64,000 nt of DNA. Source: Flavobacterium johnsoniae (GTDB lineage: Bacteria; Bacteroidota; Bacteroidia; Flavobacteriales; Flavobacteriaceae). The notes under the pieces are model-generated. The model worked only from the letters and a program-made list of their open reading frames with translations, searched no databases and was not told the origin of the DNA. The stretch covers positions 4,092,001 through 4,156,000 of the forward strand of contig NZ_CP103794.1 in the NCBI RefSeq assembly GCF_030388325.1. Direction: 5' to 3'. Below, one piece after another: positions 8,667 through 61,132 of the stretch. Positions within the stretch are counted from its first letter, which is position 1, and each line of letters starts with the position of its first letter. Both the position numbers and the translations under genes were made by a program.

Positions 8667-8705
8667 AAACTTCCGTTTAAATTGCTCTAAACGGAAGTTT
8701 TACTT
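8667..8705. terminator. Rho-independent terminator 3' of the symporter gene
   Basis: A 13-bp stem (8667-8679 with 8688-8700, AAACTTCCGTTTA and its complement) with an 8-base loop, lying about 20 bp past the symporter stop in the minus direction. Both flanks are AT-rich, so it may act on both strands. It marks the 3' end of the RuBisCO-like/kinase operon. Confidence 0.75.
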
Positions 8706-8723: not shown

Positions 8724-9995
8724 TCAAGAAATAACTTCTTCCTCATCTCCTTTCTTTCGCCAATAATTAGCCAATAAAGAACCCGAAACATTCATCCACG
8801 GACTAAATACAGCCGAAGCTAAACCTAAAGTTGCCAGTTTTCCCATTGAACCTGCCAATCCAGAAGCCATGCCACCATTTTGAAGACCTACTTCGAAAGC
8901 GATAGTTTGACTGCTCTTTTTGTCCAGACCGCTGAGCCTGCTGAGCCAATAACCAAAAAAATAACCCGCTCCGTTGTGCAAAACTGAAGCTAAGAAAAGT
9001 AAAAAACCAATCTGAATTAAATTATCCCTTCCCGCTGCTGTGGTTACCAATGTAAAATAAATGATTCCGAACATAGAGAAATAAGGCATAATCACATCTA
9101 TTTTTGGATATACTTTATACAATAAATGATACATTGTTCCAACGATAAAAGCGCCACAAGTGAAATTGATTATTTCTAAAATATGCGAAGCCGTACTATC
9201 TTCAGCAACTGCAAACGAATTTCCGAAGAATAGGACAATCGCCAGCCAAACAGCTGACAGGAAAGTCAGAATATAAATTCTCTTTTTTGCCAGATTCCCA
9301 TAGTTTTTTAATATATCGTGAATCATTGCAGCTGCCAAAGGCACAAGGACAATTTTAATAATTTCCATCATCATATTGAAGAAATGCACTTCGACCATAG
9401 TACCTGCAAATATTTTCATCAAAAACGGAGTCATTATTGGCGCAGCCAAAGTAGACATTGCCGTTACAGTTACTGACAAAACCAAATTTCCTTTGGCTAT
9501 ATATGTCATCACATTCGAAGCCAATCCGCTGCTGCAAGAACCAATCAAGATAATTCCCGCTGCGATTTCAGGTTCAAAAACAAACGTTTTGGCAATCAGA
9601 AAACCCATAATCGGCATAATAGTAAAATGTCCCAACAAACCAATCAGAACACCTTTTCCTGATTTTCGAATACCCGTAAAATCTTCAATGCTCATCTGCG
9701 TTCCCATTCCGAACATTACCATTTGAATGATAATTAGAATAAGCCATTTATTACGCATATCGAAACTGCCTACGTGCAGAAAAAAATCAGGATACAGCAA
9801 TCCTGCACAAACTGCAGTGATGATCCAAAACGTGTATTGATAACCGCTTAATACTTTCAGATGTCCTGCTCCAATGGCAATACTAGAAAAACCAAACAGT
9901 AACCCTAACTTCCATATTATCTCTATTTGCTGTAACCAGCCCAAAGCAGCTGCAATAAAAAATATTGGGATAGCCCAAAGAAAATATTTACGCAT
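8724..9995 (-). CDS. Bile acid:sodium symporter (BASS) family transporter
   Basis: A 423-residue inner-membrane transporter with about ten hydrophobic segments. The core carries BASS/SBF-like signatures: IQMVMFGMGTQMSIEDF, the Gly/Ser-rich stretch GSCSSGLASNVMTYIAKGN (about 152-170) resembling the crossing region that binds sodium and substrate, and a later EVGLQNGGMASGLA repeat element. Family members import organic anions such as bile acids, pantoate and pyruvate with sodium. It follows the RuBisCO-like/kinase/racemase-like operon on the same strand after a 142-bp spacer with a palindromic repeat, so a role in importing the acid sugar that feeds those enzymes is a reasonable inference. The substrate is unknown. 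Confidence 0.85.
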   Translation of the reverse strand: MRKYFLWAIPIFFIAAALGWLQQIEIIWKLGLLFGFSSIAIGAGHLKVLSGYQYTFWIITAVCAGLLYPDFFLHVGSFDMRNKWLILIIIQMVMFGMGTQMSIEDFTGIRKSGKGVLIGLLGHFTIMPIMGFLIAKTFVFEPEIAAGIILIGSCSSGLASNVMTYIAKGNLVLSVTVTAMSTLAAPIMTPFLMKIFAGTMVEVHFFNMMMEIIKIVLVPLAAAMIHDILKNYGNLAKKRIYILTFLSAVWLAIVLFFGNSFAVAEDSTASHILEIINFTCGAFIVGTMYHLLYKVYPKIDVIMPYFSMFGIIYFTLVTTAAGRDNLIQIGFLLFLASVLHNGAGYFFGYWLSRLSGLDKKSSQTIAFEVGLQNGGMASGLAGSMGKLATLGLASAVFSPWMNVSGSLLANYWRKKGDEEEVIS

Positions 9996-10036
9996 ACAAA
10001 TAATTATTAAAACATGTTATTATTCATTTCTTCCAA

Positions 10037-10113
10037 ACCATATAAGGCATATAAGATTCAGATAAGTTTTCTTTTTGCATAATGCTTAAATGACCTTATA
10101 TGCCTTATATGGT
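10037..10113. repeat. Inverted repeat, family C copy 1
   Basis: Perfect 19-bp arms at 10037-10055 and 10095-10113 (ACCATATAAGGCATATAAG and complement). It lies between the racemase-like and symporter genes. Related copies occur at 61034-61132 and, as a half copy, at 19863-19883. Confidence 0.9.
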
Positions 10114-10137
10114 AAAAAATTAATCTGTTTATTGTTT

Positions 10138-10800
10138 TTAGAAATAAAGCTCTGCTAGTTTTTTCATTGCAATAGTTGGACTTGCCAAAATAGGCACTAG
10201 TTTTTCTTCGGCACTTAAGCCATCGACAACACGTGCCATTGAAGCCTGTGCCAAAACAATTACATCTACTTCTTTCATTAATTCTTTTAGCGCTTTAGCA
10301 ACCATTTCATCATGTTTAGCAGAATCTCCGCTCATTAAAGCTTCAAAAGCACCTTCACATAATTTCGAAGTAATAGTTGCATTTTTACCTGCCAATTCTG
10401 CTCTTCTTCTAACCAAATCACTGGTTGGTTCCAAAGTCGTTGGCAAAGTAGCAATTACACCAATTTTGCTGCTAATCTGCACTGCTTCATCCGCCATTGC
10501 CTGATCTACACGAATCACTGGAACTGTTGCCAATGTCGCAGCCGTTTCGATCGCCACACCAATAGACGAACAGGTTACCAAAATCACATCCGCACCTGCA
10601 GTTTCGGCAGCCTGAACATGGCTTACGACTCTTGCAGCAGTATTTGGCATTAATTTTCCTTTTTTGATTACGTCTTTTATCAAGCTGTCATCCACTATAT
10701 TGAATGTTTCAATTCCCTGTAAAAACTCATTGCTTAATTGCTGAAACAACGGAACCAATGTTGCCGATGTGTGTACAAAACCTAACACTTTTGCGCTCAT
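10138..10800 (-). CDS. Asp/Glu/hydantoin racemase-like protein lacking the second catalytic Cys
   Basis: A 220-residue cytoplasmic protein of the Asp/Glu racemase superfamily. The first half-site is intact (VTCSSIG, Cys77). The position where the second half usually supplies a Cys reads VLAQASMARV (182-191), with Ala and Ser instead. Another Cys, C148, sits in KLCEGAF and may or may not compensate. Single-Cys members of the superfamily include decarboxylases such as arylmalonate decarboxylase, so racemisation should not be assumed. Its start overlaps the kinase stop by 4 bp, so translation is probably coupled. A role in the same acid-sugar pathway as the kinase and RuBisCO-like protein is inferred from this coupling only. 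Confidence 0.82.
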   Translation of the reverse strand: MSAKVLGFVHTSATLVPLFQQLSNEFLQGIETFNIVDDSLIKDVIKKGKLMPNTAARVVSHVQAAETAGADVILVTCSSIGVAIETAATLATVPVIRVDQAMADEAVQISSKIGVIATLPTTLEPTSDLVRRRAELAGKNATITSKLCEGAFEALMSGDSAKHDEMVAKALKELMKEVDVIVLAQASMARVVDGLSAEEKLVPILASPTIAMKKLAELYF

Positions 10801-12176
10801 AATTTTTCTCCTTTTAATACTTTTATAAAATAATCGGCGGTGCCCACTTGTCCGCCTTTAAAATTCATTTCTATTCCATTTACCCATTCATTGTCTGAAA
10901 CTGCCATGCAAAGCGGAGCTCCAGGAGCGATTGGCGCAATCATTTCCAGTGCCAGAATATCCAATTCCGAAGCAGCATAACTCGAAGTATCGCCACCTGC
11001 AAAAAGAATTCTTTTTATTTTGACCGCTTTTAATACTTCTTTTGTTATTTGTCCCAAAACGCTTCCGTAAACTGAACTGCATTGTTTCTGAATTTCATTT
11101 GCTGAAAAGCCTTTTGATTTAAAAAACAATTCGGTTTCTGCAATACGCTGATCGTTTGAACCCTTGCTAGTATGTAAAATGGTACTTTTACCCTGATTGA
11201 AATTGTCGACAATTTGAGCAACTGTATTCTTTATAATTTCAGCCTGATTTTCAATAGCAACGGCTTTGCTTTCTAATGCGATTTCCAAAAATCCATTTTG
11301 CAAAGCATTTTCAATTTGACCTGATGTTACTGGAGAACAGCTTCCTGATAAAACAAGTATGGGAGAAATTTCTCCTGCTGATTCAAATGTTTTTTGATTT
11401 CCTATAACTTTTTTGTCTTTCCAATCTAATCCCAAAGCCATTTCGATTCCGGATGAACCCACAGAAAATAATGTTTTTTTGGCCGCTAATTCATTAAAAA
11501 CATTTCCAATCGTTTTGAGATGTTCCAAATTGAATCCGTCGAAAAACAGGATTTCCGATTTGTTATTAGCTACTTCTTCCAGAACTTTTTCAGAACCCTT
11601 TTCAATTGTGGTTAAATTGACAAGATTGATGGATTTCTCGGTTTGTTTTGCCAAATGAATCGTCAAATCCCCTTCCAAAGCAGGTGTTACAGGATGTTTG
11701 CTCATAGACGGATGACGGTCGATACGGTAAATTTCTCCGTTTCCGATAGTTCCCATTCGGGCAAAGAGATTTCCAAATACACAAAATCTTCCCAAATGTG
11801 GTGCTGACGGCGAAACCAAAACTGTTTTCTGATTGAAAACCTCGCTTCCAATTTCAATTGCTTTTCCAATGTTACCAACGTGTGGTGCCGAATCGAAAGT
11901 AGAACAGACTTTATAATGAAAATGTGCAGGTTCAAAACTTTTCAGGTTTTCGAAAGCAGGAAAAAGTTCTTCTTCCATTTCTGAAGGCGACATTGATCGA
12001 CTTTTTCCAGCTAGACCAATTGCTTGAATTTTTGGAAAACGATCTAAGTCCTTTTGAGTTGGTTTTCTAAGAAAGAGAATGGTTTTAACTCCAGCCAATG
12101 TCAGAAATTCAAGGGCATCCGTAGAACCCGTAAAATCATCCCCATAATAAGCCAATAGCAATTTATTGTTTTTCAT
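10797..12176 (-). CDS. Four-carbon acid sugar kinase family protein (DUF1537), OiaK/OtnK/DtnK-like
   Basis: A 459-residue cytoplasmic kinase. The N-terminal sugar-binding domain starts with YYGDDFTGSTDALEF (D13/D14). The C-terminal nucleotide-binding domain has ILFAGGDTSSYAASEL and the Gly-rich loop NFKGGQVGTADYF. Length and motifs match the DUF1537 family, whose characterised members phosphorylate D-threonate, D-erythronate, 2-oxo-tetronates or 3-oxo-isoapionate. The ATG overlaps the stop of the RuBisCO-like gene by one base (TAATG), and its own stop overlaps the racemase-like start. In D-apiose catabolism a DUF1537 kinase (OiaK) makes the substrate for a RuBisCO-like enzyme, so the pairing here favours that type of substrate. 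The exact substrate is not proven. Confidence 0.9.
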   Translation of the reverse strand: MKNNKLLLAYYGDDFTGSTDALEFLTLAGVKTILFLRKPTQKDLDRFPKIQAIGLAGKSRSMSPSEMEEELFPAFENLKSFEPAHFHYKVCSTFDSAPHVGNIGKAIEIGSEVFNQKTVLVSPSAPHLGRFCVFGNLFARMGTIGNGEIYRIDRHPSMSKHPVTPALEGDLTIHLAKQTEKSINLVNLTTIEKGSEKVLEEVANNKSEILFFDGFNLEHLKTIGNVFNELAAKKTLFSVGSSGIEMALGLDWKDKKVIGNQKTFESAGEISPILVLSGSCSPVTSGQIENALQNGFLEIALESKAVAIENQAEIIKNTVAQIVDNFNQGKSTILHTSKGSNDQRIAETELFFKSKGFSANEIQKQCSSVYGSVLGQITKEVLKAVKIKRILFAGGDTSSYAASELDILALEMIAPIAPGAPLCMAVSDNEWVNGIEMNFKGGQVGTADYFIKVLKGEKL

Positions 12177-13417
12177 TACTTAGAAAATTTCTTTACTGAT
12201 GCGGCAAATTCAGGATACTTCAAAGCAGTTTCTTCCACAGACAAACCTTCAACGGCTCCCGTCCAAGCTTGCTGTAATGCGTTTACTCCAGCTTTTGGTC
12301 CCATAGGATGTGCTAAAATACCGCCACCTGCCATATACAACAAATCGGTAGTTTGGGTTCTTCTGTAAGTTTCTACCGCTTGTCCTCCCCATTGTCCCGA
12401 AGAGACAACAGGCAAGATTTCGTATCCGCCTAAAAACGGTTTCAAACAAGATTTTATGGACGTCACTACTGAATCATCCGATTCCCAAAATTTATTCTGA
12501 ATTCCGTTAACGTGCAGTTGGTCGACTCCCGCCAGACGCTGAATTTTTTGATAAGCAGGAAACTCAATTCCCAACAGAGGATGACGGTTCAGCATTCCCC
12601 AGCCGTTTCTGTGACCGTGAATAACGAGTTCACCCTGATCACATATTTTCTTCGTTCCCGAAAGCCCGACACTGTTGATGCTAATCATTGCGCAGCTACC
12701 TTCTTCCTTTTTAATCAAATCGTATTTTCGTTGCATCTCGTCAATTTCATCACTTATATTGAAAGCATACATTACTTTTTTACCCGTTTTTTGTTCGTTG
12801 TCACGGATGACTTTCATTATTGCTTTTACCCTTTCGTCAAAAGGCGAATTAGCAGCAGATCCCATCAATTCATCGTCTTTAATAAAATCGATTCCGGCAT
12901 CAATTAATGATTTTACCAAAGTTGCGGTTTCCTCCACGCTCATTCCTATGCTGGGTTTTATAATAGTTCCAATCATTGGTCGGTCGGTTACGCCACAAGA
13001 TAATTTAGAGCCTTTGATTCCGAATTTAGGTCCTTTGAAATGATTTTGAAAAGATTCCGGCACTTCAAAATCCATTAGTTTCAAACCAGTAAATTGCGTG
13101 ATTTCATATAGATTTCCTTGTAAAGTGCTGATTAAAACTGGCAGATTATAACCAAAATTTTCTATCGACCAGCTTACTTTTACTCTTGCTTTCTGATATT
13201 TTTTTCCAGGAATACTGCCGCCCGGAATGGATGGTTCATCTGATAAATCCAATAACTGAATATCTTCTACCCTTGCTGCAAAACGCTTTTTCAATTCCTC
13301 GGTTTCACCCGGAACTGACACAAAGGTTCCAGAAGATTGCTCTCCTGCCAAAACCGCCGAAGCCTGCTCTACATCATAAGGGGTCTCAATAAGATATTCT
13401 GCAAAAACTCTTTCCAT
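12176..13417 (-). CDS. RuBisCO-like protein (candidate 3-oxo-isoapionate-4-phosphate-type enzyme)
   Basis: A 413-residue member of the RuBisCO large-subunit superfamily. It keeps the metal/carbamate site (DFIKDDE, K180-D182-E183), the first catalytic lysine (GTIIKPSIG, K154), the active-site His/Arg (HGHR, 267-270), Ser339/340 before GQWGG and the phosphate-binding GGGILAHPMGP (364-374). Loop 6, which closes over CO2 in true RuBisCO, is replaced by HVNGIQNKFWE (302-311), so carboxylation of ribulose bisphosphate is very unlikely. RuBisCO-like proteins include enolases and isomerases of methionine salvage and the apiose-pathway decarboxylase and transcarboxylase/hydrolase (OiaX, OiaT). It is first gene of a coupled operon with a DUF1537 kinase, which favours the apiose-type role over methionine salvage. 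Confidence 0.9.
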   Translation of the reverse strand: MERVFAEYLIETPYDVEQASAVLAGEQSSGTFVSVPGETEELKKRFAARVEDIQLLDLSDEPSIPGGSIPGKKYQKARVKVSWSIENFGYNLPVLISTLQGNLYEITQFTGLKLMDFEVPESFQNHFKGPKFGIKGSKLSCGVTDRPMIGTIIKPSIGMSVEETATLVKSLIDAGIDFIKDDELMGSAANSPFDERVKAIMKVIRDNEQKTGKKVMYAFNISDEIDEMQRKYDLIKKEEGSCAMISINSVGLSGTKKICDQGELVIHGHRNGWGMLNRHPLLGIEFPAYQKIQRLAGVDQLHVNGIQNKFWESDDSVVTSIKSCLKPFLGGYEILPVVSSGQWGGQAVETYRRTQTTDLLYMAGGGILAHPMGPKAGVNALQQAWTGAVEGLSVEETALKYPEFAASVKKFSK

Positions 13418-13612
13418 CTAATATATTTTTTTTTTAAGAAATTCTAAATAAACGAATTTATAGGAAGTAAGTGTCCTGTGGTGTGAGGGTTACGAAAGAA
13501 ATCTTAAAATAGTTAGTTTTCTTTTCCTTCTTTTAGATTTTATCAAAAGAAAAAGATATAATGGACAGCCAACCTTTCTGTCAAGACTCCCATAATAAAT
13601 GTGGTTATCAAC

Positions 13613-13646
13613 AAAAAAACTCCATTATTTCTAATGGAGTTTTTTA
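13613..13646. terminator. Terminator 3' of GH2
   Basis: A 12-bp perfect stem (13616-13627 with 13632-13643, AAAACTCCATTA and complement) and a four-base loop, 18 bp past the GH2 stop in the minus direction, followed on that strand by a T-run. It separates the hydrolase block from the RuBisCO-like operon, whose promoter should lie at 13418-13612. Confidence 0.85.
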
Positions 13647-25452: not shown

Positions 25453-28203
25453 TTATTTAACGTTTATAGCATAATTCCCTGACGAAAGTGTCACAACTAT
25501 TTGATTTTTATCTTTAGAATAAGCATATGAAGTCTTATCTAACTTCTGTTTGTTGATTGAAACAGCCGAAATCTCACTCGTAGGAAGATACACAATTGCA
25601 GAAGTATTCGCAGGAATAGTAATATTCCAAACCAAACCTTTTTTATCCTTTTTCCAATCGCTTTTAATTGTTCCGTAAACTGATTCGTAAGAAGCATTTA
25701 CATAAGTCAATCCTGCATTAAAATCTGGTTTCATGATAATTTGCTTAAAACCAGGAGTATCAGGATTGCTCTTAATTCCCGCCATATTTTCGTAATACCA
25801 AATCAGTAAATCGCCTAAAAGCATAACATGGTTTTGCGAATTCATTGCTGGGTCGGCGGTATTTCCGTTCCAAAGTTCCCAAATGGTTGTGGCACCATTT
25901 TCGACCATATAACCCCAACTTGGATAGGTTTTGTTTGAGGCCAATTTGAAAGCCAAATCACCACGACCAAAATTGGTTAACGTTCGCATTAAAAACTGTG
26001 TTCCAATAACTCCCGTGCTTACATGACCGTTTTTAGTTACTTCTACTTCATGAACTAAATTTTCAAATACTTTTTGCTGTAATTCTTCTGGAACCATTCC
26101 GAAAGTCAAAGGAAGTAAATTCGCTGTTACAGTATTATTGGCGTAACTATTTTTGGCTGAATTAAAATATTTAGTGTTGAATGCTTTTTTGATTCTTGAA
26201 GCTAATTCGTCATAATGTTTAATATCATTTTGAGCATTGGCGATTACCGCAAATTTCTTCATGATGTTTAAAAGCTGATAATAAAATGCACTAGAAATCA
26301 ATTCGCCATCTGTTAAACGAGAAGGATCTTTCGAACGAATTAATTCCAACGATTCTGGCGGAACGCACCAATCGCCATATTTGTCTTTGGTCATGATATC
26401 ATCAACCAAATAGTTTTCTTCCATATAATCCATCCATTTTTTCATCGACGGATATTGTTTTTCTACTACTTTTTTATCTCCAAATTGTTGATACAACATG
26501 TCTGCAACTGTAATGTAAGTTCCCGGCCAAGTTACATTATCACCGTAATAACGCCAGAAAGCTGGTGCCACGTCTGGAAGTCCACCATCAATTGTTTGTG
26601 AGTTTTTAATATCGTCTAACCATTTTGCATATAACGTCTGATTATCAAACAAGAAACTTTCTCCATAAGCTCCAGTCGTTCTGTCTCCCAACCAAGGCTG
26701 ACGCTCGTTTCTCTGCGGACAATCAATAGGCATTCCTTTATAATTTCCGCTGATTCCCCACCAAGCGTTTTTAAAAATCTGATTCATAATTGGGTTTGAA
26801 GAATCGAAAGTTCCTGTTGTGGCAATGTCATCATAAACGACTTTTCCAACGAAATTTTCTAAAGTCGGTTTGGTTCTGAAACCTGAAATTTCTACAAATC
26901 TGAAACCGTGAAAAATAAATCGGGGTTCCCAAACTTCTTCTCCTTCGCCTTTTAACGTATAAATATCCGTTGTTTTAGCATCACGTAAATTGGCAATGTA
27001 TAACGAACCATCTGGCTGTAAAGATTCAGCAAATTTTATGGTGATTTTGTCGCCAGCGTTTCCTTTCACTTTCAATTGTAGCCAGCCCACCATATTTTGT
27101 CCCATATCTAAGATATAAGTTCCTTTTGGTGTTTGTTTAATCGAAATAGGTTTTACTTCACGTTTTACCTTCATATTCGCCGACATCTGTCCTTCGTAGA
27201 ATCCGCCTGGTTCTTGAACATATTCAGCCGAAAGCCATTTTTTATCATTAAAATTAACGGCATTCCAGCCTTTCATTTCTTTACGGGCATCATATTCTTC
27301 GCCATCGTATTCATTGTTCGATAAAATCGGACCGTAGGTTGTGATTTTCCAAGTATCGTCTGTACGAATAACATCTTTACTTCCATCAGTATATTCTACA
27401 AACAACTGCAAAGCCATTTTCGGATAACCAAAAGTTTTGATTTTATAAGGTTTGTAATCTTGACGCATCGTAAAAAAACGTCCGTTTCCTAAAATCGTTC
27501 CTAATGCATTTTTACCTTCCTGCAATTGTGAAGTCACATCAAAAACATTGTATTTTACATTCTTGGTATAATCCGTAGGAACGGGAGCTAAAACCTGATC
27601 ACCAATCTTATTTCCGTTAATATATAACTCGTACAAGCCCATTCCCATGATATAAACTTTGGCATTTTTGACCTTCTTTTTCAAGTCAATTTCTTTTCTT
27701 AAATATCTCGCTGATAATCTCGAATACTGCGAAATACTATCTCCTGGAGAAGTTTTTTCATACCCAATCCATCGTGTTGATTTCCAATCCGCATAAGTCA
27801 AAATTCCGATGCTGAAATGTGCTGTTTCTTTTGATTGAACTTCGCCTTTATTTGTAAAAACATTTACTTTCCAATAAACGTCTTGTCTGTCTTTTAGCTT
27901 TTTTCCGTTATAAATTACATTTACAGATTCGTTGCTTTGTACCTTTCCGCTATCCCATAAATCTGCGTTTCCTGCATTTAGTTTTTCTAAAGACGAAGAA
28001 GCTAAAATTTGATAATGAGTTTGTTTTACATCATTTATTTCTGCTTTTATTTTCCAGCTCAATCTTGGCTGTAAAACATCAATTCCTTCTGGATTTGTCA
28101 GCATTTCGCATTTTAAATCACTTACAATTATTTTAGTTTGGGCTTTCGCCGAAATTGTAAAAAGTGAAATGATTAATGTAAGATGTAAAAAAAACTTTTT
28201 CAT
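25453..28203 (-). CDS. GH78 alpha-L-rhamnosidase (first)
   Basis: A 916-residue secreted enzyme with a signal peptide ending SAKAQ. It has the full GH78 layout: N-terminal Fn3-like domain (about 30-135, PRLSWKI), rhamnosidase N domain (about 170-330, YELYINGNKIGDQVLAP), concanavalin-like domain (about 340-450, YILDMGQNMVGW), six-hairpin barrel (about 460-800) and C-terminal sandwich (about 805-916). The catalytic region reads DCPQRNERQPWLGDRTTGAYGE; the family general acid is an acidic residue here. GH78 removes alpha-L-rhamnose by inversion. With a second GH78 nearby, the pair probably covers different rhamnosyl linkages of rhamnogalacturonan. Confidence 0.94.
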   Translation of the reverse strand: MKKFFLHLTLIISLFTISAKAQTKIIVSDLKCEMLTNPEGIDVLQPRLSWKIKAEINDVKQTHYQILASSSLEKLNAGNADLWDSGKVQSNESVNVIYNGKKLKDRQDVYWKVNVFTNKGEVQSKETAHFSIGILTYADWKSTRWIGYEKTSPGDSISQYSRLSARYLRKEIDLKKKVKNAKVYIMGMGLYELYINGNKIGDQVLAPVPTDYTKNVKYNVFDVTSQLQEGKNALGTILGNGRFFTMRQDYKPYKIKTFGYPKMALQLFVEYTDGSKDVIRTDDTWKITTYGPILSNNEYDGEEYDARKEMKGWNAVNFNDKKWLSAEYVQEPGGFYEGQMSANMKVKREVKPISIKQTPKGTYILDMGQNMVGWLQLKVKGNAGDKITIKFAESLQPDGSLYIANLRDAKTTDIYTLKGEGEEVWEPRFIFHGFRFVEISGFRTKPTLENFVGKVVYDDIATTGTFDSSNPIMNQIFKNAWWGISGNYKGMPIDCPQRNERQPWLGDRTTGAYGESFLFDNQTLYAKWLDDIKNSQTIDGGLPDVAPAFWRYYGDNVTWPGTYITVADMLYQQFGDKKVVEKQYPSMKKWMDYMEENYLVDDIMTKDKYGDWCVPPESLELIRSKDPSRLTDGELISSAFYYQLLNIMKKFAVIANAQNDIKHYDELASRIKKAFNTKYFNSAKNSYANNTVTANLLPLTFGMVPEELQQKVFENLVHEVEVTKNGHVSTGVIGTQFLMRTLTNFGRGDLAFKLASNKTYPSWGYMVENGATTIWELWNGNTADPAMNSQNHVMLLGDLLIWYYENMAGIKSNPDTPGFKQIIMKPDFNAGLTYVNASYESVYGTIKSDWKKDKKGLVWNITIPANTSAIVYLPTSEISAVSINKQKLDKTSYAYSKDKNQIVVTLSSGNYAINVK

Positions 28204-28440: not shown

Positions 28441-30009
28441 TTATTTCGAAACCAACTTCTCTAATTTCTCAGAAACCGCAATTTCTTTTCCATTTTTAAA
28501 AATTCTGAAACCTTTACCCTTTTTATATTTTTCTCCTGTTTTATCCCAAAGAATTGTTATTATATTTCCATGATACAAAACATTATCCAAACAAAACCAA
28601 TCCCATTTTTCTTGCGGAATTAATGGATTTACTTCAATCTTTTCATCTGCTCTCGGGCGTAAACCAACCAAACCTGTAATCACCAAATCATTGAAAGTGG
28701 AATGATTATAATAACGGCTTCTTTCTCTGTCGCCCATTAACCAATAACCCGTTGTTTCGTCCAAATATTCGCCAAGATAAGGTTTCCCTCTGTAATATTG
28801 TGATTGCACATACAAATCCATTTGTTTGAAATAATCTGTTTTAGCTACAAAATTCTGATTGTAATTATTCAAAACATTTGCTAAAGCCGTTAACGTCTGC
28901 GAACTTGCAAATGGCCAAATCGCACCGTCCCATTCACACGTTCCTGTTCCGTGTGTTCTAAATCTAGGACTTCTTCTTTCTGCTGTTGTTAAACCAAACG
29001 GAGCCGAAAATCCTTTTTCATCTTTAATTTGTTCCCAAGCTTTTTCAAAACCTTTGTTCTGCTCCGGCAGATTAAAATACCACGGAATAAATCCGATTGC
29101 TTCTCTAACCTGTGCCAAAGTATCTTTTTCTGTAAAGGTCTCAAAAAATTCGCTTTTCTGATTCCATAATTTAGTTTCTACTAATTTTTGTAAAACATCA
29201 GCTTTAGCTTTGAATTTGTTTTCTGTTTCCTTATCACATTTCAACTCAGCCATTTTAGAAATTGCTATAGCATTTCCATACATATAACTGTTTATCGTTG
29301 GTCTCGCATTTTGCACTTTTCTTCCTCCGCTTAAAGATTCTTCCATTCCATCTTTTACATCATGTTGCCAAAACAAACCATCTTTTCTCTGACGATCTTT
29401 TTCCCAAACGGCATAATCTGTAACCATGTCTGGATACAAATCCAATAAAAATTTTTCATCCTTATTTACCAAATAACGATTGTACAAAGCATCTGCTGTC
29501 CAACTGCTGAATTTATACAATTTATTCATTGGTTTTCCATCATTTCCTCGATACCAAAGTTTGACATCCTGCTCAATGTATTTAGGATCATGAACCCATC
29601 TGAACTCGTTAATATGATGGCCTAAAGCACAACTAATCATATTATATTTATCGGCATACGAACGATCAACTAAAAACTCGGTAATTGCAAATCCTTGCGG
29701 TGTATTTTTAATATGTTTTCGAATGCTCCACCATCTGAAATAATAGATTTCCTCAAAATTCTGCTGTGGACATTCAAACAACGGAATATTCTTTTCCATC
29801 CACGCCCACGCGCTGTCATTCGGAATTGCGAATTTTAAGTTTTCATCTTCCATTGTGTTTAAATAATCCACATAATGTTTGAAGTTTTTTTCTTTTAAGA
29901 TAACTGCTTTTCCTTTTTGAGAATGTACTGTACCCGATTTGCAACCGCTGTTTATACAGGCGATTACTATTGAAAGTGCTATTATTTTATGTTTGAAATG
30001 TTGTAACAT
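28441..30009 (-). CDS. MGH1-like (alpha/alpha)6-barrel glycoside hydrolase lipoprotein
   Basis: A 522-residue lipoprotein (NSGCKSG, Cys23). The protein is an (alpha/alpha)6-barrel hydrolase of the GH63/MGH1-like superfamily: WSIRKHIKNTPQGF, LFWQHDVKDGMEESLSGG, RFRTHGTGTCEWDGAIWPFASSQ and GYWLMGDRERSRYYNHSTFND. The acidic residues in HDVKDGMEES and CEWDG are the best candidates for catalysis. GH63-type relatives are alpha-glucosidases or mannosylglycerate hydrolases, but this subgroup recurs in pectin and rhamnose PULs with an unassigned activity. It sits between GH95 and GH78, so a rhamnogalacturonan side-chain substrate is likely. Confidence 0.78.
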   Translation of the reverse strand: MLQHFKHKIIALSIVIACINSGCKSGTVHSQKGKAVILKEKNFKHYVDYLNTMEDENLKFAIPNDSAWAWMEKNIPLFECPQQNFEEIYYFRWWSIRKHIKNTPQGFAITEFLVDRSYADKYNMISCALGHHINEFRWVHDPKYIEQDVKLWYRGNDGKPMNKLYKFSSWTADALYNRYLVNKDEKFLLDLYPDMVTDYAVWEKDRQRKDGLFWQHDVKDGMEESLSGGRKVQNARPTINSYMYGNAIAISKMAELKCDKETENKFKAKADVLQKLVETKLWNQKSEFFETFTEKDTLAQVREAIGFIPWYFNLPEQNKGFEKAWEQIKDEKGFSAPFGLTTAERRSPRFRTHGTGTCEWDGAIWPFASSQTLTALANVLNNYNQNFVAKTDYFKQMDLYVQSQYYRGKPYLGEYLDETTGYWLMGDRERSRYYNHSTFNDLVITGLVGLRPRADEKIEVNPLIPQEKWDWFCLDNVLYHGNIITILWDKTGEKYKKGKGFRIFKNGKEIAVSEKLEKLVSK

Positions 30010-30305: not shown

Positions 30306-32756
30306 TTAATTCCCAGTAAAAGTATAAGTCTGCCCCGCTTTCATATTCACATCGTAAATACTATAATTTGGCAATTGTACTTTAGGCAATTTTGCTTCAT
30401 TAGAAATAATCGGTTTCTTCACTTCTACATCATAAAACAGCGGATTTGAATTTTTCCCTTTTGCTTTTTTGATTGAAGAACCTTTTAAAGTATTCTCTAC
30501 TTTCAATCTGCAGTTTCCTCCAATTTTCGAATAGATTTTCAAAGTCGAAACTTTATTGTTTTTCCAAGTCATATCAATTACAAATCCGCCTCTTGCGACT
30601 AAACCTTTTATACTTCCGTCCTTCCAAACCGTTGGCAAAGCAGGCAATAATTGAATTGCATCTTCTTGACTCTGCATCAGCATTTCGGCAAAACCGGCTG
30701 CGCATCCAAAATTTCCATCAATTTGAAATGGCTGATGCGCATCTAACATATTCGGATACGTTCCTCCTCCTTTTCTTTGATCCGCGGTTACCAAATGCAA
30801 TTGATCTTGAATCAATTTATAAGCATGATTTCCGTCTAATAATCTCGCCCATAGATTCACTTTCCATCCCATTGACCAGCCTGTAGATTCGTCTGTCCTG
30901 TAGATCAAAGATTGTTTGGTTGCTTCAAATAATTCAGGTGTTTTAATTGGCGAAATCTGATTACTTGGATACAATCCGTACAAATGTGAAACGTGTCTGT
31001 GATTGTCTTTCGGATTGTCCCAATCGTCCTGCCATTCTTGTAATTGATTATGTTTGCCCACTTTCATTGGAGGCATTTTTGCCAAAGCATCACTCACTTT
31101 TTTCACATAAACAGCATCTGGAGAAACCAATGCTGAAGCTTCCATAACATGTGTAAACAAATCAAAAACCAACTGATTATCCATTGTTGTTCCTGATGCA
31201 ATTGTTGCTTTTCCAGTTCCGCCTGCGTGTGTGTTTTCAGGTGAACTCGACGGAACAACCACTAAATATTTTGTGTTTGGATCTATCACCATGAAATCTA
31301 AAAAGAAATCAGCTGCACCTTTCATAATTGGATAAATTTCTGCCAAATATTTTTTATCTCCTGTATATAAATATCTTTCCCATAAATCCTGACAAACCCA
31401 AGCACCACCAGTCGGCCACATTCCTGAAGCAGCAGAATCTACCGGAGCAGTTACACGCCAGATATCGGTGTTATGATGTAAAACCCAACCGCTGGCATTA
31501 TACATTGTTTTGGCTGTTTCCGCACCTGTAACCGCCAATTCTTTTGCCATTTGCACAAAAGGTTCGTGCATTTCCTGCAGATTGGTTACTTGTGCGGGCC
31601 AGTAATTCATTTCGGCATTGATGTTTGTTGTGTATTTACTGTCCCAAGGTGGTGTTACCATATCGTTCCAGATTCCTTGTAAATTGGCTGGCTGACCTCC
31701 TGGCTGTGAACTCGAAATCAAAAGATAACGTCCGAATTGGAAATACAAACTCGCCAATTGAGGGTCAAACTGTTTTGAAAAATCTCTAATTCTTTCGTTT
31801 GTTGGTTTCTTTGTCAATTCATTTGAACCTAAATCTAAAGATACTCTGTTGAAGAATTTTTGATAATAATCAACATGGGCTTTCTTTATGGCTTCAAAAT
31901 CTTTTATTTCCGCTTTCGCTAAATAATCTTTGCTTTTTGCAATTTCATCACCCGAAATATCCTGATAGTTTTTGAAATTCGTTGCAATCGAAATGTATAA
32001 AGTCACTTCGTCGGCTTTGTTGATACTTAAAACACCGTTGCTTGCATCGATTTGACCACCTTTGTTTTTAGCTGTAAATCGGCCTTGAAATTTCACTTTT
32101 CCTTTTACATTTTCAAAATTAGTTCCAACTCCTGAAAGTATAATCTGGTTTCCTTCTGTCGAAGCTACCGTTTTATCAATTGGACTGTTCATGAAAACGT
32201 TACAAGTAATTTGTCCAGGCTGACTAGCAGAAAGTTTTACTACAATAACCTGATCTGAAAATGCGGTTAGAATTTCTCTTGTAAATTCAACGCCGTTTAC
32301 TTTGTATTTTACTTTAGCTGTAGCGTTGCTGATGTCTAAATCACGGTAGTAATCGGTATATTTTTGATGTCCGTTGAATGAAATATAAACGCTTCCAAAA
32401 GTCTGATAGGGCATTCCGTCATTGGTTTGCGACATAATATCCTGCGTAGCCAAATCTTGTGCTTCATCAAATTTTCCGTCAAAAATTAATTGACGAACAA
32501 TTGGAAGTGCTTTTATCGATTTAGAATGTGCATTGCTGTTTGGAGAACCTGCCCAAATGGTTTCTTCGTTCAACTGCAAACGTTCTACTGCCGGATCGCC
32601 AAAAACCATTGCGCCCAGACGTCCGTTACCTAAAGGCAAAGCTTCGTTCCAGATTGCAGCTGGTTTATCGTACCATAATTTTAGGTCGCTTTGAGCTGTT
32701 GCTGTTAAGGAAAAAAATCCAAGACAGATTGCCGTTATTTTAATTTTTAACTTCAT
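30306..32756 (-). CDS. GH95 alpha-L-fucosidase / alpha-L-galactosidase
   Basis: An 816-residue secreted enzyme with a signal peptide ending TATAQ. The N-terminal beta domain begins [20 protein letters not shown] with the family phrase LNEETIWAG, followed by the (alpha/alpha)6 barrel. The catalytic elements of GH95 are all visible: NAEMNYWP (the two Asn that activate water), [10 protein letters not shown] (Glu) and FQIDGNFG (Asp general acid). GH95 enzymes invert alpha-1,2-linked L-fucose; a subgroup in pectin loci removes alpha-L-galactose from rhamnogalacturonan II. Context favours a pectin side-chain role, but fucose versus L-galactose cannot be decided from sequence alone. Confidence 0.94.
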
Positions 32757-34594: not shown

Positions 34595-37375
34595 TTATAT
34601 TGTGCATTCTATTGTATAAATTCCAGATCCTAATTCCAAAACAGGATTTTGCGCTTTTTCATCAAAACCTACTCTAACCTTTTTATTGTCAATTTTTATT
34701 TCTGAATTTTTAGCAACTGGCAATTTGATTGTCGCTGTTGTATTTACAGGAATCTGAACCGTCAAAATAAATTTGCCGTCTTTCTTTTCCCAAGAAGAAG
34801 CAATTTTTCCATAAACCGATTGATAGTCCGCTTTCGCGAAAGTCATATCACCAACTACTTCTGGCTGAATAAAGAAATGTTTGAATCCTGGCTTTTCAGG
34901 ATCGGACATAATTCCGGCTAAACTTTGGTAAAACCATTCTTCAATTTGCCCTAACATAAAGTGATTCCACGAATTTCCTTTTCTAGGATCCCATTGTTCC
35001 GTTAAAGTGGTCAAGCCAAATTTAATCTGAAAACCATAACCAGGTGCATCGTAATGATTGTGCATTCTGTACATCGTTTCATTTTCGCCGTTTCTTGCCA
35101 AAGTCTGAAATAAATAACGATTTCCAACATCTCCCGTTGTTAAACGATCTCCTTTTTCTTTGATATCGGCTAACAGATTTTGCATTACAGCTTCTTTATA
35201 CTGAGGTTCTACGATATCCATAAAAATCGGAACCGAGTTGCTAAACTGACTCTTTGTTCCGTATTGTTTGGTTTCTTCGTTGAAAAACTCTTTATTGAAG
35301 GCTGTTTTAATCTCAGAAGCCAAAGCATTATATTTCTCAAAATCTTCAGTTTTCCCTAATAATTTTGATGCTTTTGCTACTAAATAAGCTCCATAATAAT
35401 AGTGCGAAGTCGCAGAAAGCGCAATCGGACTATTCTTTGAATATCCTGCAGGATGCGTTCCGTAATCGTACCAATCGCCTAATCCGTGTGAAACGATATG
35501 ATTTGTTGCTTTCGTTCCTAAATAATCCACGTAATTTTTCATTACTGGAAAATATTTCTCTAATAATGAAGCGTCGCCATAATATTCATAATACATCCAA
35601 GGCAGAATAACTCCTGTAACTCCCCATTCTGGAGAATCGGTAAAATCACCTCCAAAAATTACATATTCAGGAACAATGGTCGGAATTAAACCATTATCAC
35701 GTTGTGAATCAGAAATGTTTTGCATTGTTGCTGGAATGAAATTCTGAAGGTTATAATTGAACATTAAACCTGGACCATTTAGTTGAATTTCTTCCAACCA
35801 ACCTAATTTTTCACGCTGTGGACAATCGGTAAAAACGCTTTGAAAATTACTTTTTATCGAGTTATTAATCAATTCGTGTGTTTTATTAAAAATTTCATTC
35901 GAACATGAAAAACTTCCTGCTTCTCCTGCCGAATTGTAAATGAAATTCGATTTCAATTCAACCAAAGTTGGAAGTTCTTTATTTTTATCTTCTTTGTAAT
36001 TAATATTTTCAATCTGAACATACTGATAACCGTAGAAACCGAATTTTGGTGTCCATTCTTCCACTCCATCGCCTTTTAAAGTATAATCGTAATAGTATGG
36101 TTTTCCAGATCTTCCTTGCGCGATTGTCCCTTCTTCATTTAAACCTTCGGCAACCCAAACACGAATCGTTTGTCCTCTTTTTCCTTTTACTTTGATAGTT
36201 GGAAATCCTGAAAGATTCTGTCCCATGTCAAAAACATAGAAATTCGGTTTCAGCTCTTTTACGGTTTTAACTTCATATTGTTTCTGAATTGTAACTGGCG
36301 GAGCTGTCTGAGGTCTTAAAACTCCTTTTGGCGCTTCTTGAATGACAACTTTTTTCCACTCTCTATCTTTGAAACCTTTTCTATTCCAGCCTTTCTGTTC
36401 TAGATTGGCATTGTAATCTTCTCCTCCAAAAATGCTATTATAAGTAATCGGACTTTTGCTGTATTTCCAAGATCCATCTGACTTTACAATTTCTTCTGAA
36501 CCATCGTTATATTTAATTTTCATTTTGAAGAATAAAGTCGGCGGACCAAAACTCACAAAGAATTTGGTATATCTTTCTGCAAGCGTATTGTACATTCCGT
36601 TTCCTAACAAAACACCAATTACGTTATCGCCTTTTTGAAATTCTTTGGCGCTTAATTCGTAAACATTGTAATTCACTGTTTTATCATAATCTGTCCACAA
36701 AGGCGCAAATTGGCTGTTTCCAACTTTTTTCCCATTGATTGTTAATTCGTAATGCCCTAAACCTGAAATATAAACAACGGCTTCTTTGATTTCTTTTTTT
36801 ACTTCGAAAGGTTTACGAAGCATAATACTTCTTCTTGCCAAAGAATCGGAAGCATTGATAAACGAATTCTTTTTTTCTCTATTGAAAGTGGCTGTGTGGT
36901 AATTTCTTCCTTCTGGTAAATGACTGTCGGCTTTTGTAATCGCACCAATCCAAGTCGGATTTAAATCTGATTCTAAAGAAGCGGTTCTGAACGAAGCAGT
37001 TCTACTCCATTTTGAAACTTTTCCTGATTGATTCCAAACTTTTACTTTCCAGAAATATTTGGTTTCATTTTTTAATGGTTTTCCATTATAAACGATATGT
37101 AGGTTTTTGTCTGTATTAACTCTTCCGCTGTTCCAAATATCCCCATCATCCATTTTTAATTTTTCTTCCGAAGAAGCTACTAAAATCAAATAAGCGACTT
37201 GTGATGCATCAGATTCTTTTGAAACCAATTGCCAGCTTAATCTCGGCTGATTCTGAACTATTGCTAATGGGTTTTCAGCCATTTCTGTTGTTAAACGTAC
37301 AGGCAGAATTTGTGCATTCGAGATGAATGTCATTAAAAAGATAAGTCCTAATAATATGTTTTTGAAATTCTTCAT
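34595..37375 (-). CDS. GH78 alpha-L-rhamnosidase (second)
   Basis: A 926-residue secreted enzyme. The ATG at 37373-37375 opens the signal peptide (ending SNAQ); an upstream ATG would add eleven non-signal residues. Domain order matches GH78: Fn3-like (about 25-130, NQPRLSWQL), rhamnosidase N domain (about 185-345, GLGHYELTINGKKVG), concanavalin-like (about 365-470, FYVFDMGQNLSG), six-hairpin barrel (about 480-810) and C-terminal sandwich. The catalytic stretch reads TDCPQREKLGWLEEIQ. It belongs to the longer GH78 group and differs clearly from the GH78 at 25453, so the two are not a recent duplication and should have different linkage preferences. Confidence 0.94.
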   Translation of the reverse strand: MKNFKNILLGLIFLMTFISNAQILPVRLTTEMAENPLAIVQNQPRLSWQLVSKESDASQVAYLILVASSEEKLKMDDGDIWNSGRVNTDKNLHIVYNGKPLKNETKYFWKVKVWNQSGKVSKWSRTASFRTASLESDLNPTWIGAITKADSHLPEGRNYHTATFNREKKNSFINASDSLARRSIMLRKPFEVKKEIKEAVVYISGLGHYELTINGKKVGNSQFAPLWTDYDKTVNYNVYELSAKEFQKGDNVIGVLLGNGMYNTLAERYTKFFVSFGPPTLFFKMKIKYNDGSEEIVKSDGSWKYSKSPITYNSIFGGEDYNANLEQKGWNRKGFKDREWKKVVIQEAPKGVLRPQTAPPVTIQKQYEVKTVKELKPNFYVFDMGQNLSGFPTIKVKGKRGQTIRVWVAEGLNEEGTIAQGRSGKPYYYDYTLKGDGVEEWTPKFGFYGYQYVQIENINYKEDKNKELPTLVELKSNFIYNSAGEAGSFSCSNEIFNKTHELINNSIKSNFQSVFTDCPQREKLGWLEEIQLNGPGLMFNYNLQNFIPATMQNISDSQRDNGLIPTIVPEYVIFGGDFTDSPEWGVTGVILPWMYYEYYGDASLLEKYFPVMKNYVDYLGTKATNHIVSHGLGDWYDYGTHPAGYSKNSPIALSATSHYYYGAYLVAKASKLLGKTEDFEKYNALASEIKTAFNKEFFNEETKQYGTKSQFSNSVPIFMDIVEPQYKEAVMQNLLADIKEKGDRLTTGDVGNRYLFQTLARNGENETMYRMHNHYDAPGYGFQIKFGLTTLTEQWDPRKGNSWNHFMLGQIEEWFYQSLAGIMSDPEKPGFKHFFIQPEVVGDMTFAKADYQSVYGKIASSWEKKDGKFILTVQIPVNTTATIKLPVAKNSEIKIDNKKVRVGFDEKAQNPVLELGSGIYTIECTI

Positions 37376-37395
37376 TCTTAATTGTTGAGATTCGT

Positions 37396-37514
37396 ACGCG
37401 GATGACACGGATTTACTTCGTAAAGACGCGGATAAAAACTGATTTTTTATTTGTTTAAAAATAAAATCCGTGCAAATCTGCGTCTTCGCGGTAGCGAATC
37501 CGTATCATCCGCGT
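37396..37514. repeat. Palindromic element family B, copy 2
   Basis: Arms ACGCGGATGACACGGATTT (from 37396) and AATCCGTATCATCCGCGT (to 37514), with the inner GATTTACTTCGTAAAGACGC phrase shared with copies 1 and 3. Confidence 0.87.
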
Positions 37515-37597: not shown

Positions 37598-39460
37598 TTA
37601 CAATTTCTTAGTAATCAACGATTCGATATTGAATACTGCTTCTGGAATTAATTTTCCGGTTTGAGGCAGATCGTCGTAATCGTCTGTATCTGGCTCAGTG
37701 TCTGGATTTGGCGTGTATCTTTGTTCTCCTGTTCGGAACATAATTCGCTCGAAACCGTCTGTTGGCGCATAAAATATCTTTGTTGATTCTTTTCCATCGT
37801 TTACTTTTATAGTGTACTGACGGTTTTTAGCATCTAATTTAACGGTGATTGTATATGCTTTGTTTGCTTCGTATTTTGTAACCGCACTCAAACGCGCACC
37901 ATTTTTTACCTTTAATTCTCCGTCCGAATCAAAAATCAATCTTACGGAAGGTAATCCTTGTTTATTTTGGAATTCAATCTGTAATAAACCATGATCGTTC
38001 TGTTCTGGTTTTACGGTGAAAACGGCTTCCATTTTTGAAGCAAAAGGAATTACTCTTTCAGCACGAGAATAATCAAAATAATCCTGATCTCTTAACGTGA
38101 GCCATTTTTTACCATCGGCTTTCTTTTCGATTTTGGTTGATGCCCAAGAAAGATCGTAGGTATTCCATAATTTTAATTCCTCACCATCAGGAAGTGCATT
38201 GAAAACATCATTTGCTTGTTCTTTAACCTCTGAAGTTACAGGAACAGGAATCGAAGCTACCCAAATATCTTCTTTATTTACACTATAACCAACCCAAATT
38301 TTTCCGTCTGGCGGAGTTCCGTTTTTTTCCGTGATTCCGCGAACGTATTGAGGACCTGCAGATTTGTAGTTTCCGCCGTAACGCATCGGACTTACTTCGC
38401 CATGAACTAATAGTAAATCTTTATAATTCAGTCCGTCATCACTTGTTGAAATCGCCAACGGCCAACGATATTCTGATGGATTGTAAAGTGTTGCATAACG
38501 ATTGTCTGATGTTTTTTGTCCCCAGATTTTAGCGTTGCTGTTTACAAATCCTGGCGCACGTAATGGCATATAATCCCAAGATTTTCCTCCGTCTCTACTG
38601 ATTGAAGTTAAAGCGTGTTTCCATAAACCAACCACATTTCCGTTTGCCAAATGGTAATAACTAAACGCTTTGTAAGGTTTCTGTAATGGAATCAATTCAT
38701 CATCACGATCGGCTTCTTCTACCCATTGCTGTAAAACCAATGGTTCTGATAAGATTTCTTCGCAGGCTTTTTTGAAACCTTTGTCTTTTGATGTGGTGTA
38801 AAATGGGAATTTCGATTTCGATTTGTCCCAAGTTTTGTTGTATCTGATAAAATAGATTTCGCCAAAACTACCGTCTTTTTTAATTTCACGAATGACACGA
38901 CCAATTCCTTTTCCGTCGTTTGGATCGTCTTTTTCATCCATTGCGATTCCGTAATACGCTAACGCAAAAAGTCTTTTGTCTTTTGACGTATAAAATCCCA
39001 TTCTTTGGTGCATAATCGCATCGAGATTTTTGGCAACGCCTTCAACTCCTTCTTTTTTCCATCCATCAGGAATTCTATAAATAGGGAAAATTACTTCTGG
39101 TTTTGTCCACGTTACACCATCTTTAGAAGTCATTAGTAAAGTCTGGCTTGGCGGAATATGTTCGCCTGAAGGATCGCTTAAATAATGCAAATAAAAGGTA
39201 TTATTCCAATACGCCATCATCGGCTGGTGGTTGTATGTCCATCCAAAACCATCCGCTTTTTCAGGATGTTCACGGCTTGCACGCATAATTTGCGTAGCGT
39301 GAACTCCAACCGCTGGACTTAACATTCCGTGATGATAATCAATGTTTGAAAGTGTTTTTCCAACATAACGCACTGTGTCGTTTTGAGCATTTACAGCGTT
39401 ACAAGCCAATATAATTGTGGCTGTGATGATGTTGGTTTTTATGTTTTGGAAAGCAATCAT
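37598..39460 (-). CDS. Sialidase-fold beta-propeller protein with a C-terminal LamG-like sandwich
   Basis: A 620-residue secreted protein with a signal peptide ending NAVNAQ. Residues about 40-420 form a propeller with Asp-box repeats (TSKDGVTWTKP, SRDGGKSWDYM, STSDDGLNYKDL) and a conserved-looking front: YNHQPMMAYWNNTFYLHYLSDPSGEH. Residues about 430-620 form a jelly-roll sandwich (AVFTVKPEQNDHGLLQIEF). Propellers with this look in PULs have been linked to cleaving rhamnose-glucuronic acid ends (GH145 and lyase relatives) or remain unassigned; a sialidase is improbable here. Between GH43 and GH78, it should act on a rhamnogalacturonan side chain. Fold is likely, activity open. Confidence 0.72.
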   Translation of the reverse strand: MIAFQNIKTNIITATIILACNAVNAQNDTVRYVGKTLSNIDYHHGMLSPAVGVHATQIMRASREHPEKADGFGWTYNHQPMMAYWNNTFYLHYLSDPSGEHIPPSQTLLMTSKDGVTWTKPEVIFPIYRIPDGWKKEGVEGVAKNLDAIMHQRMGFYTSKDKRLFALAYYGIAMDEKDDPNDGKGIGRVIREIKKDGSFGEIYFIRYNKTWDKSKSKFPFYTTSKDKGFKKACEEILSEPLVLQQWVEEADRDDELIPLQKPYKAFSYYHLANGNVVGLWKHALTSISRDGGKSWDYMPLRAPGFVNSNAKIWGQKTSDNRYATLYNPSEYRWPLAISTSDDGLNYKDLLLVHGEVSPMRYGGNYKSAGPQYVRGITEKNGTPPDGKIWVGYSVNKEDIWVASIPVPVTSEVKEQANDVFNALPDGEELKLWNTYDLSWASTKIEKKADGKKWLTLRDQDYFDYSRAERVIPFASKMEAVFTVKPEQNDHGLLQIEFQNKQGLPSVRLIFDSDGELKVKNGARLSAVTKYEANKAYTITVKLDAKNRQYTIKVNDGKESTKIFYAPTDGFERIMFRTGEQRYTPNPDTEPDTDDYDDLPQTGKLIPEAVFNIESLITKKL

Positions 39461-53757: not shown

Positions 53758-53774
53758 AATTGTTTTAATTAATA

Positions 53775-58784: not shown

Positions 58785-58801
58785 TTGTTTTTTACTTTTT
58801 T

Positions 58802-58906
58802 TTGTCATTTTGACGAAGGAGAAATCACACTAGAAATTGCGCAATCTAAATCGACAATCTTTGGCGAGTTACGTATGTGATTTCTCCCTTTCGGTCTAAA
58901 TGACAA
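58802..58906. repeat. Palindromic element family A, copy 7
   Basis: Left arm TTGTCATTTTGACGAAGGAG from 58802; right arm to 58906 with several changes (CCCTTTCGGTCTAAATGACA). It directly abuts the CE8 signal sequence region, 18 bp from the ATG. Confidence 0.85.
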
Positions 58907-61018: not shown

Positions 61019-61033
61019 TCTTTTATAATTTTG

Positions 61034-61132
61034 AACCATATAAGCAATATAAGTTCATTTAAACTAACCTTTTTAAACTTTCGCAATACAGATTAAGTCA
61101 AACTTATAATATCTTATATCACTTATATGGTT
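61034..61132. repeat. Inverted repeat, family C copy 2
   Basis: Arms 61034-61053 (AACCATATAAGCAATATAAG) and 61113-61132 pair with few mismatches. It fills the spacer between the third PL1 and GH127. Confidence 0.87.

Follow-up and report, generated by a model that had tools for sequence, protein, structure and literature searches.

Within a 64,000-nucleotide stretch of Flavobacterium johnsoniae DNA (the window), four consecutive minus-strand genes at 8724–13417 encode a RuBisCO-like protein (RLP), a DUF1537 kinase, a racemase-like protein here called RAC and a BASS transporter. We consider it fairly likely that this operon, or cassette, catabolises aceric acid freed from side chain B of rhamnogalacturonan II (RG-II) by a GH127 enzyme encoded in the same locus. 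Aceric acid, a characteristic RG-II sugar of that side chain, is 3-C-carboxy-5-deoxy-L-xylose, a branched, carboxylated sugar with the structure OHC-CHOH-C(OH)(COO-)-CHOH-CH3. The observed basis of the proposal is the gene content, its conservation, its co-inheritance with GH127, the undetected enzymes of apiose catabolism and the class into which the RLP falls by its residues; from these we infer the substrate, the order of the steps, the reaction of RAC, the cargo of the BASS carrier and the products.

The source genome (5.32 Mb, one contig) is 99.97% complete, and all four open reading frames (ORFs) are open and complete. The RLP (12176..13417, 413 aa; Pfam RuBisCO_large 208 bits) carries OiaT-like active-site residues, belongs to a clade of its own with 99/95 support and is predicted to be a transcarboxylase/hydrolase of the phosphorylated ketose of aceric acid, and the DUF1537 sugar-acid kinase (10797..12176, 459 aa; Pfam SBD_N/NBD_C 185/110 bits; 427 of 700 bits with the OiaK model) is predicted to phosphorylate a ketone-adjacent terminal hydroxyl. 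RAC (10138..10800, 220 aa; Pfam Asp_Glu_race 80 bits), a one-cysteine protein (C77) of the Asp/Glu-racemase fold in its AlphaFold2 model, is a predicted aldose–ketose isomerase, and the BASS/SBF-family symporter (8724..9995, 423 aa; Pfam SBF 129 bits; 208 of 400 bits with the PanS model) a predicted importer of the free sugar acid. ORF coordinates and Pfam matches confirm the arrangement described in an earlier sequence-only reading of this DNA, with the RLP and kinase genes overlapping by 1 bp, the kinase and RAC genes by 4 bp, and the BASS gene following after a gap of 142 bp. The OiaX model matches one RLP in the source genome, and the nearest named relatives of the window RLP are from Flavobacterium. 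Within the RAC/BASS gap lies a perfect 19-bp inverted repeat (10037–10055 and 10095–10113); short peptide motifs read from it were seen only in locus L009 among the related loci compared. Just past the BASS gene a terminator scan gives a terminator-like hairpin with a palindromic stem (8667..8700, on the plus strand only), and since the region holds four such sites where shuffles lead one to expect 4.4, this hairpin is no evidence of function.

Related loci were taken as the best 80 of 568 confirmed matches in a species-genome scan (L007–L086; more exist), with hosts that are, by record titles and tree labels, mostly Bacteroidota, plus Balneolota and Verrucomicrobiota. Together with the window, a Rufibacter plasmid (L002) and a Croceibacterium plasmid (L004) they form a comparison of 83 loci, in which ORF clustering placed the RLP in 80, the kinase in 80, RAC in 76 and the BASS carrier in 75, counts that are somewhat low, some genes being lost to short contigs and a simple ORF caller. 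Thus the RLP exists in L048 and L086 (locus search) and in L004 (annotation) though missing from the RLP cluster. Chance does not account for the RLP–kinase–RAC–BASS unit. The racemase-like protein and the symporter had been set down as lying outside the described apiose pathway; here they prove to be constant parts of the unit. Two loci, L034 and L046, have no kinase beside the RLP, which is followed there by a BT_1020-like hydrolase and a GH43-like protein; a substitute for the kinase was considered and dropped, as both genomes encode the kinase elsewhere. In L083 (a Verrucomicrobia genome) and L084 (a metagenome-assembled genome labelled Akkermansia) an enolase-superfamily (MR_MLE) gene, so assigned from other members of the same cluster, lies directly upstream of the RLP, and a sugar-acid dehydratase might take part in the route there.

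The link to aceric acid runs through GH127. The window encodes a predicted aceric acid hydrolase of this family (58997..61039, minus strand; Pfam GH127) of the 5mqo type, and we take the structure 5mqo to be BT1003, an assignment supported by its close match (806 bits) to a 433-residue fragment of the GH127 from a Bacteroides-like RG-II locus. Three GH127s, two adjacent to an RLP and the third that of the window, scored 868, 830 and 822 bits with 5mqo and 398, 392 and 388 bits with the next chains, placing the window enzyme nearer 5mqo than the known beta-L-arabinofuranosidases (822 vs 388 bits). BT1003 is named as an aceric acid hydrolase in published work. In 25 of 77 scorable loci a 5mqo-type GH127 gene immediately precedes the RLP gene, on the same strand and at most 300 bp away; 20 have no close gene in this position, seven a GH2 and five a rhamnosidase-like gene. 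The fetched flanks of 82 neighbourhoods hold GH127 in 38 cases and GH140 in three, both lower bounds, many neighbourhoods ending at contig ends.

Whole-genome counts were made for 49 of the genomes behind the 80 loci, picked to favour long contigs and to limit redundancy within Flavobacterium. All 49 have a BT1003-type GH127, one each at 858–1280 bits with every other match at or below 714 bits, as scored with profile A3, which was made from 20 RLP-adjacent GH127s and the window GH127 so that a match is built in for 16 of the 49 but not for the other 33 (profiles A2 and A6 were likewise built from set members, window included, and those members match by construction). The BT_1020-like RG-II marker is present in 47 of the 49, the genomes of L021 and L022 having none. 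In a sample of 296 genomes of the class (RLP threshold E 1e-60), the RLP occurs in five, a GH127 above 1000 bits in 11, and PF24067 above its cut-off in the same 11, the 1000-bit threshold having been set once the scores were seen to leave the range from 669 to 1002 bits empty; 13 genomes passed the preset GH127 E-value, of which two at 669 bits gave no PF24067 or RLP match. All five RLP-bearing genomes fall among the 11 RG-II genomes and no other sample genome matches the RLP (hypergeometric p 2.5e-8, or 6.8e-7 without the source genome itself, both uncorrected for kinship, the genomes being related and their independence thereby overstated). RAC is present in exactly the same five genomes and the kinase query found no match in the six RG-II genomes without RLP, a pattern suggesting that the set is an optional extra for RG-II degraders, acquired or lost as one block; among the five RLP-bearing genomes the kinase search covered G000, G125 and G308, and G125 shares coordinates with G023 (L037), so that the class sample and the set of loci overlap.

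As to the chemistry, the RLP and the kinase look akin to OiaX and OiaK, as had been supposed from the sequence. These are their best-scoring models, though both proteins stay below the 700-bit cut-offs: the RLP gives 495 bits with OiaX (NF042437), 243 with form III RuBisCO and 121 with MtnW, and the kinase 427 bits with OiaK (NF042436). A grouping with methionine-salvage enzymes, which the sequence-only reading had named as refuting its apiose proposal, did not appear in these scores, and they reject a role of the RLP in methionine salvage (120.6 bits with MtnW, TIGR03332, for a cut-off of 513.6). Residues were compared at 19 RLP sites of our own selection with nine proteins named OiaT in their source annotation, using 72 cassette RLPs (ORFs of 405–432 aa) of the 80 clustered. 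At 18 of the 19 sites the residue most frequent among the nine (two of which differ at 308) is also that of the window RLP, and all 72 cassette RLPs share the window residue at every site. Positions 26, 102, 156 and 302 read E/N/S/H in 72/72 cassette RLPs and D/G/A/Q in 6/6 OiaX-type RLPs (five of them labelled oiaX), a pattern derived here and not a published criterion, and one that the cassette RLPs lack. Aligned to the form III-type RuBisCOs 8dht and 2cwx, N102, K154, K180, D182, E183, H267, R270 and H302 are identical in both structures, E26 in 8dht and K309 in 2cwx; in RuBisCO these positions have catalytic roles. A tree of 40 rows (21 of the 72 cassette RLPs and 19 others, the OiaT-named proteins being left out) unites the cassette RLPs in one group (99/95). 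The OiaX type (100/100) stands outside this group, and so do the apiose- and TRAP-associated rows, where the Croceibacterium RLP of L004 is placed. The window RLP is 48–51% identical to the nine OiaT-named proteins, and the RLP of plasmid locus L006 shares 78–81% identity with OiaT-named proteins. Since the cassette RLPs keep OiaT-like residues, we predict OiaT-type transcarboxylation and hydrolysis, with 3-phosphoglycerate and L-lactate as products.

OiaT turns 3-oxo-isoapionate 4-phosphate into 3-phosphoglycerate and glycolate, the parent 3-oxo-isoapionate being HOCH2-C(=O)-C(OH)(CH2OH)-COO-. The OiaK–OiaT branch of D-apiose catabolism, of the Xanthobacter type, was reportedly described by Carter et al. 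in 2018. Like that branch, the cassette combines a DUF1537 kinase with an RLP, nearly identical to OiaT at the sites inspected, and it differs in that no ApnO, apiose dehydrogenase or lactonase was detected, with RAC and the BASS carrier in their stead. Judged by active-site residues, the cassette RLP probably performs the same chemistry as OiaT on P-O-CH2-C(=O)-C(OH)(R)-COO-, where R would be CHOH-CH3 instead of the CH2OH of the OiaT substrate. On comparison of the structure formulae, the ketose of aceric acid would indeed be a homologue of 3-oxo-isoapionate with CHOH-CH3 replacing CH2OH. The route would then start with import of aceric acid by the BASS symporter and continue with conversion of the aldose, most likely by RAC, into the ketose HOCH2-C(=O)-C(OH)(COO-)-CHOH-CH3, the ketone-adjacent terminal CH2OH of which would be phosphorylated by the DUF1537 kinase. 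Finally the RLP would decarboxylate the phosphorylated ketose, re-add CO2 one carbon over and hydrolyse the product, as OiaT does, to give 3-phosphoglycerate and L-lactate. The latter would derive from carbons 3–5, its stereochemistry following from the L-xylo configuration. Set against the gene content, the formulae suggest that a single isomerisation may replace dehydrogenase, lactonase and oxidoisomerase, which would fit three enzymes undetected, RAC added and a BASS carrier instead of an ABC system. The full three-step pathway, with triple RLP chemistry down to 3-phosphoglycerate and L-lactate and one-cysteine RAC as aldose–ketose isomerase, is put forward tentatively, and as a whole may well be wrong in one of its parts.

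RAC is modelled at a pLDDT of 95 with an Asp/Glu racemase fold, for which Foldseek returns 2ohg, 2eq5 and others with E from 2.7e-8. In fold it is thus like the Asp/Glu racemase superfamily of glutamate, aspartate and hydantoin racemases, from which it differs in that it seems to keep one of the two catalytic cysteines: C77 is invariant in 76/76 RACs, and the second catalytic Cys of hydantoin racemase 2eq5 aligns, in a weak 3-bit second alignment, to Gln185, which is invariant in all 43 rows of profile A6 and belongs to those positions whose conservation across the 76 RACs is 93% or more. As judged by that weak alignment for the second position, RAC does not have the two catalytic cysteines of the two-base Asp/Glu racemases. 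The apparent replacement of the second cysteine makes a two-base racemase unlikely, and a one-base 1,2-proton transfer as in aldose–ketose isomerases is possible, although we know of no aldose–ketose isomerisation by the Asp/Glu racemase fold.

The same substrate evidence would also accommodate an RLP that acts as a simple decarboxylase, giving a 5-deoxypentulose 1-phosphate that an aldolase of the fuculose/rhamnulose-phosphate type would split into dihydroxyacetone phosphate and acetaldehyde. OiaX, of the same family, is a decarboxylase, and at position 300, the sole inspected site where the cassette RLPs depart from OiaT, they have the OiaX-type Q in place of H. An aldolase splitting 5-deoxyribulose 1-phosphate into dihydroxyacetone phosphate and acetaldehyde has been proposed, as set out in a portion of PMC6302742. 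The cassette RLPs, however, keep E, N and H where 6/6 OiaX-type proteins have D, G and Q, and no class II sugar-phosphate aldolase was found by Pfam among the recurrent neighbour families scanned; such an aldolase could be a rare neighbour or be encoded away from the set. Three loci have a DHDPS-family (aldolase-type) protein (cluster 46). OiaX-type decarboxylation is thus disfavoured by the residues and kept as a rival that we regard as unlikely. The rhizobial OiaX operons (R. etli p42f, L005) share the RLP–DUF1537 gene pair with the cassette and differ in the four inspected sites at which OiaX-type RLPs are changed and in the isomerase genes that adjoin OiaX in L005, annotated as a 'triose-phosphate isomerase' and an RpiB-family gene, presumably LerI and RpiB. 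Neither isomerase gene is present in the fetched stretch of L003, L006 and L088, which have OiaT-like residues. In L098 and L099, RLPs labelled OiaX stand with aldo/keto reductases and no annotated kinase in the fetched stretch, and here the label may be wrong.

Apiose itself is probably the wrong substrate for the operon. A variant of its catabolism, in which apiose freed by GH140 would be oxidised to apionate, rearranged by as yet unnamed enzymes and finished by the kinase and an OiaT-like RLP as in Xanthobacter, would suit the best-scoring OiaX and OiaK models and the agreement with OiaT-named proteins at 18 of the 19 sites, as it would the presence in the same locus of a GH140-type apiosidase gene (42422..43828, minus strand; Pfam Apiosidase 370 bits; best solved relative 3kzs/5msy at 400 bits). 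In the annotated apiose-type plasmid operons (L003, L005, L006 and L088) we take two products to be ApnO and ApnL, the one annotated as a 'phosphogluconate dehydrogenase C-terminal domain' protein, the other as a large hypothetical protein; a Gfo/Idh dehydrogenase is encoded with them. Sugar ABC systems are found in the operons of L003, L005 and L006, where the cassette has its BASS carrier. The R. etli ApnO query gave no match in the complete source genome or in 48 of the 49 other cassette genomes, the last one returning a 23-bit partial match over 95 residues. The R. etli ApnL query found partial matches in two of 50 whole genomes and none in the 48 others, among them that of the window, and ApnO, ApdH, ApnL, LerI and RpiB queries from R. 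etli found nothing in the 82 fetched neighbourhoods, of which, as said, three hold GH140. For both proteins, ApnO and ApnL, the R. etli plasmid was the positive control; its 614 bits with ApnO are a self-match and no gauge for distant ApnO. ApnL-like partial pieces of 34–36% identity lie outside the fetched neighbourhoods in two Runella genomes, G038 (L054; C3:82247-83734) and G043 (L063; C67:237456-238904). An OiaT-type operon, with ApnO, apiose dehydrogenase and lactonase alongside, is therefore not what the cassette presents, and we judge the apiose variant quite unlikely. The sequence-only reading had the locus both free and consume apiose: the same-strand apiosidase gene that it reported is confirmed, and apiose as the operon's substrate is not supported, with ApnO unmatched and GH127 leading upstream. 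Its observation that the usual dehydrogenase, lactonase and oxidoisomerase are absent agrees with the searches above, and its remark that this may be a variant or new route is borne out.

That the set handles some other branched hydroxy acid of RG-II or a periplasmically modified sugar, its tie to GH127 reflecting a mere shared locus, is very unlikely: RLP–kinase pairs are versatile, several standing beside TRAP transporters, and all genomes of the class sample that hold the set are RG-II degraders, with their many linked genes, but GH127 leads the counts of genes adjacent upstream and, to our knowledge of RG-II composition, aceric acid alone among its residues is both branched and carboxylated. 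The TRAP-associated pairs are those of L089, L090, L091, L102 and L105, whose fetched stretches show no gene annotated as ApnO-type; in L090, L102 and L105 a VOC-family gene lies directly upstream of the RLP–kinase pair. A haloarchaeal plasmid (L087, 8995-14019) groups an RLP, a DUF1537 kinase, an ApnO-like gene and a GntP permease, possibly for archaeal apionate uptake.

Besides Q300, several points weigh against aceric acid as substrate or against the route given above. In the window's own genome GH127 lies 45.6 kb from the RLP and GH140 only 29.0 kb, and GH140 is the nearer of the two in three of the five RLP-bearing class genomes, this one included. GH140 was tried as a discriminator between the substrates and failed, since a relative is encoded in 11/11 RG-II genomes of the class and co-occurrence cannot separate aceric acid from apiose. 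Six of these 11 lack the set, which is accordingly dispensable for RG-II use. TRAP-associated pairs imply that the RLP–kinase module serves other compounds too, and the ApnO and ApnL queries were single R. etli sequences, which distant versions could escape. In some loci Gfo/Idh dehydrogenases (cluster 15 in 13 loci, cluster 16 in 12) lie no more than 10 kb from the set and might belong to the pathway. The role of RAC is the least certain step, resting on one missing cysteine seen through a weak alignment, and another isomerase could act instead, RAC serving elsewhere. Lastly, the RLP–kinase pair of Croceibacterium L004 stands, without RAC or BASS, beside a GH127-domain protein 24% identical to the BT1003 type. 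At 10175-14528, in a pectin-type locus, this divergent GH127-domain gene and those of the RLP and the kinase overlap one another; the first, named for a beta-L-arabinofuranosidase domain and overlapping the RLP gene by 1 bp, had been weighed as independent support for aceric acid and was dropped for its 24% identity.

By its domain content the DNA around the cassette reads as an RG-II utilisation locus. Between 13.7 and 63.6 kb, on the same strand, genes for GH2, GH78, GH95, GH28, GH43-like, GH127, GH140 and BT_1020-like enzymes and a pectinesterase accompany a SusC/SusD pair, with BT_1020-like, GH140, GH95, GH78, GH28 and GH127 genes, taken together, marking the locus type. The RG-II marker itself is a BT_1020-like beta-propeller hydrolase (37598..39460; PF24067, 415 bits). 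Domain matches identify two GH78-type rhamnosidases (25453..28203 and 34595..37408), a GH95 hydrolase (30306..32756), a GH28 polygalacturonase-type enzyme (40621..42189), a pectinesterase (57798..58808) and a SusC/SusD-type outer-membrane uptake pair (51760..57104, made up of 53775-57104 and 51760-53805), and an MGH1-like hydrolase is encoded at 28441..30009, all on the minus strand. Among known systems the B. thetaiotaomicron RG-II locus that holds BT1003 is close to this one: a genome that we take for a Bacteroides relative (G118, L106) has a 20-kb run of nine ORFs homologous to window enzymes, their best matches being GH43-like, MGH1-like, GH78, GH28, esterase, GH95, GH140, GH78 and GH127. 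A difference is that G118 and G204 (family f32, inferred Bacteroides relatives) are without an RLP or kinase match. One 1109-aa ORF of L106 (1394-4723) matches both the MGH1-like and the BT_1020-like gene of the window, the two being fused there. Between genes of the window's polysaccharide utilisation locus lie two Flavo-1 RNA matches, at 30052-30139 (minus strand, 49.9 bits) and 20088-20166 (plus strand, 43.6 bits), for an Rfam gathering score of 42.

According to a passage of PMC12168206, RG-II occurs across all plants. Among the open-literature matches listed we recognised no description of the onward metabolism of aceric acid; Carter 2018 and Ndeh 2017 could mention it. The enzyme that releases this sugar is known (BT1003), and the cassette, if our reading is true, would add a route for its breakdown. 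It would likewise assign a substrate to widespread genes of Bacteroidota and Verrucomicrobiota that are annotated 'ribulose-bisphosphate carboxylase', provide another sugar-acid use of RuBisCO chemistry and make RAC a candidate for a new reaction of the racemase fold.

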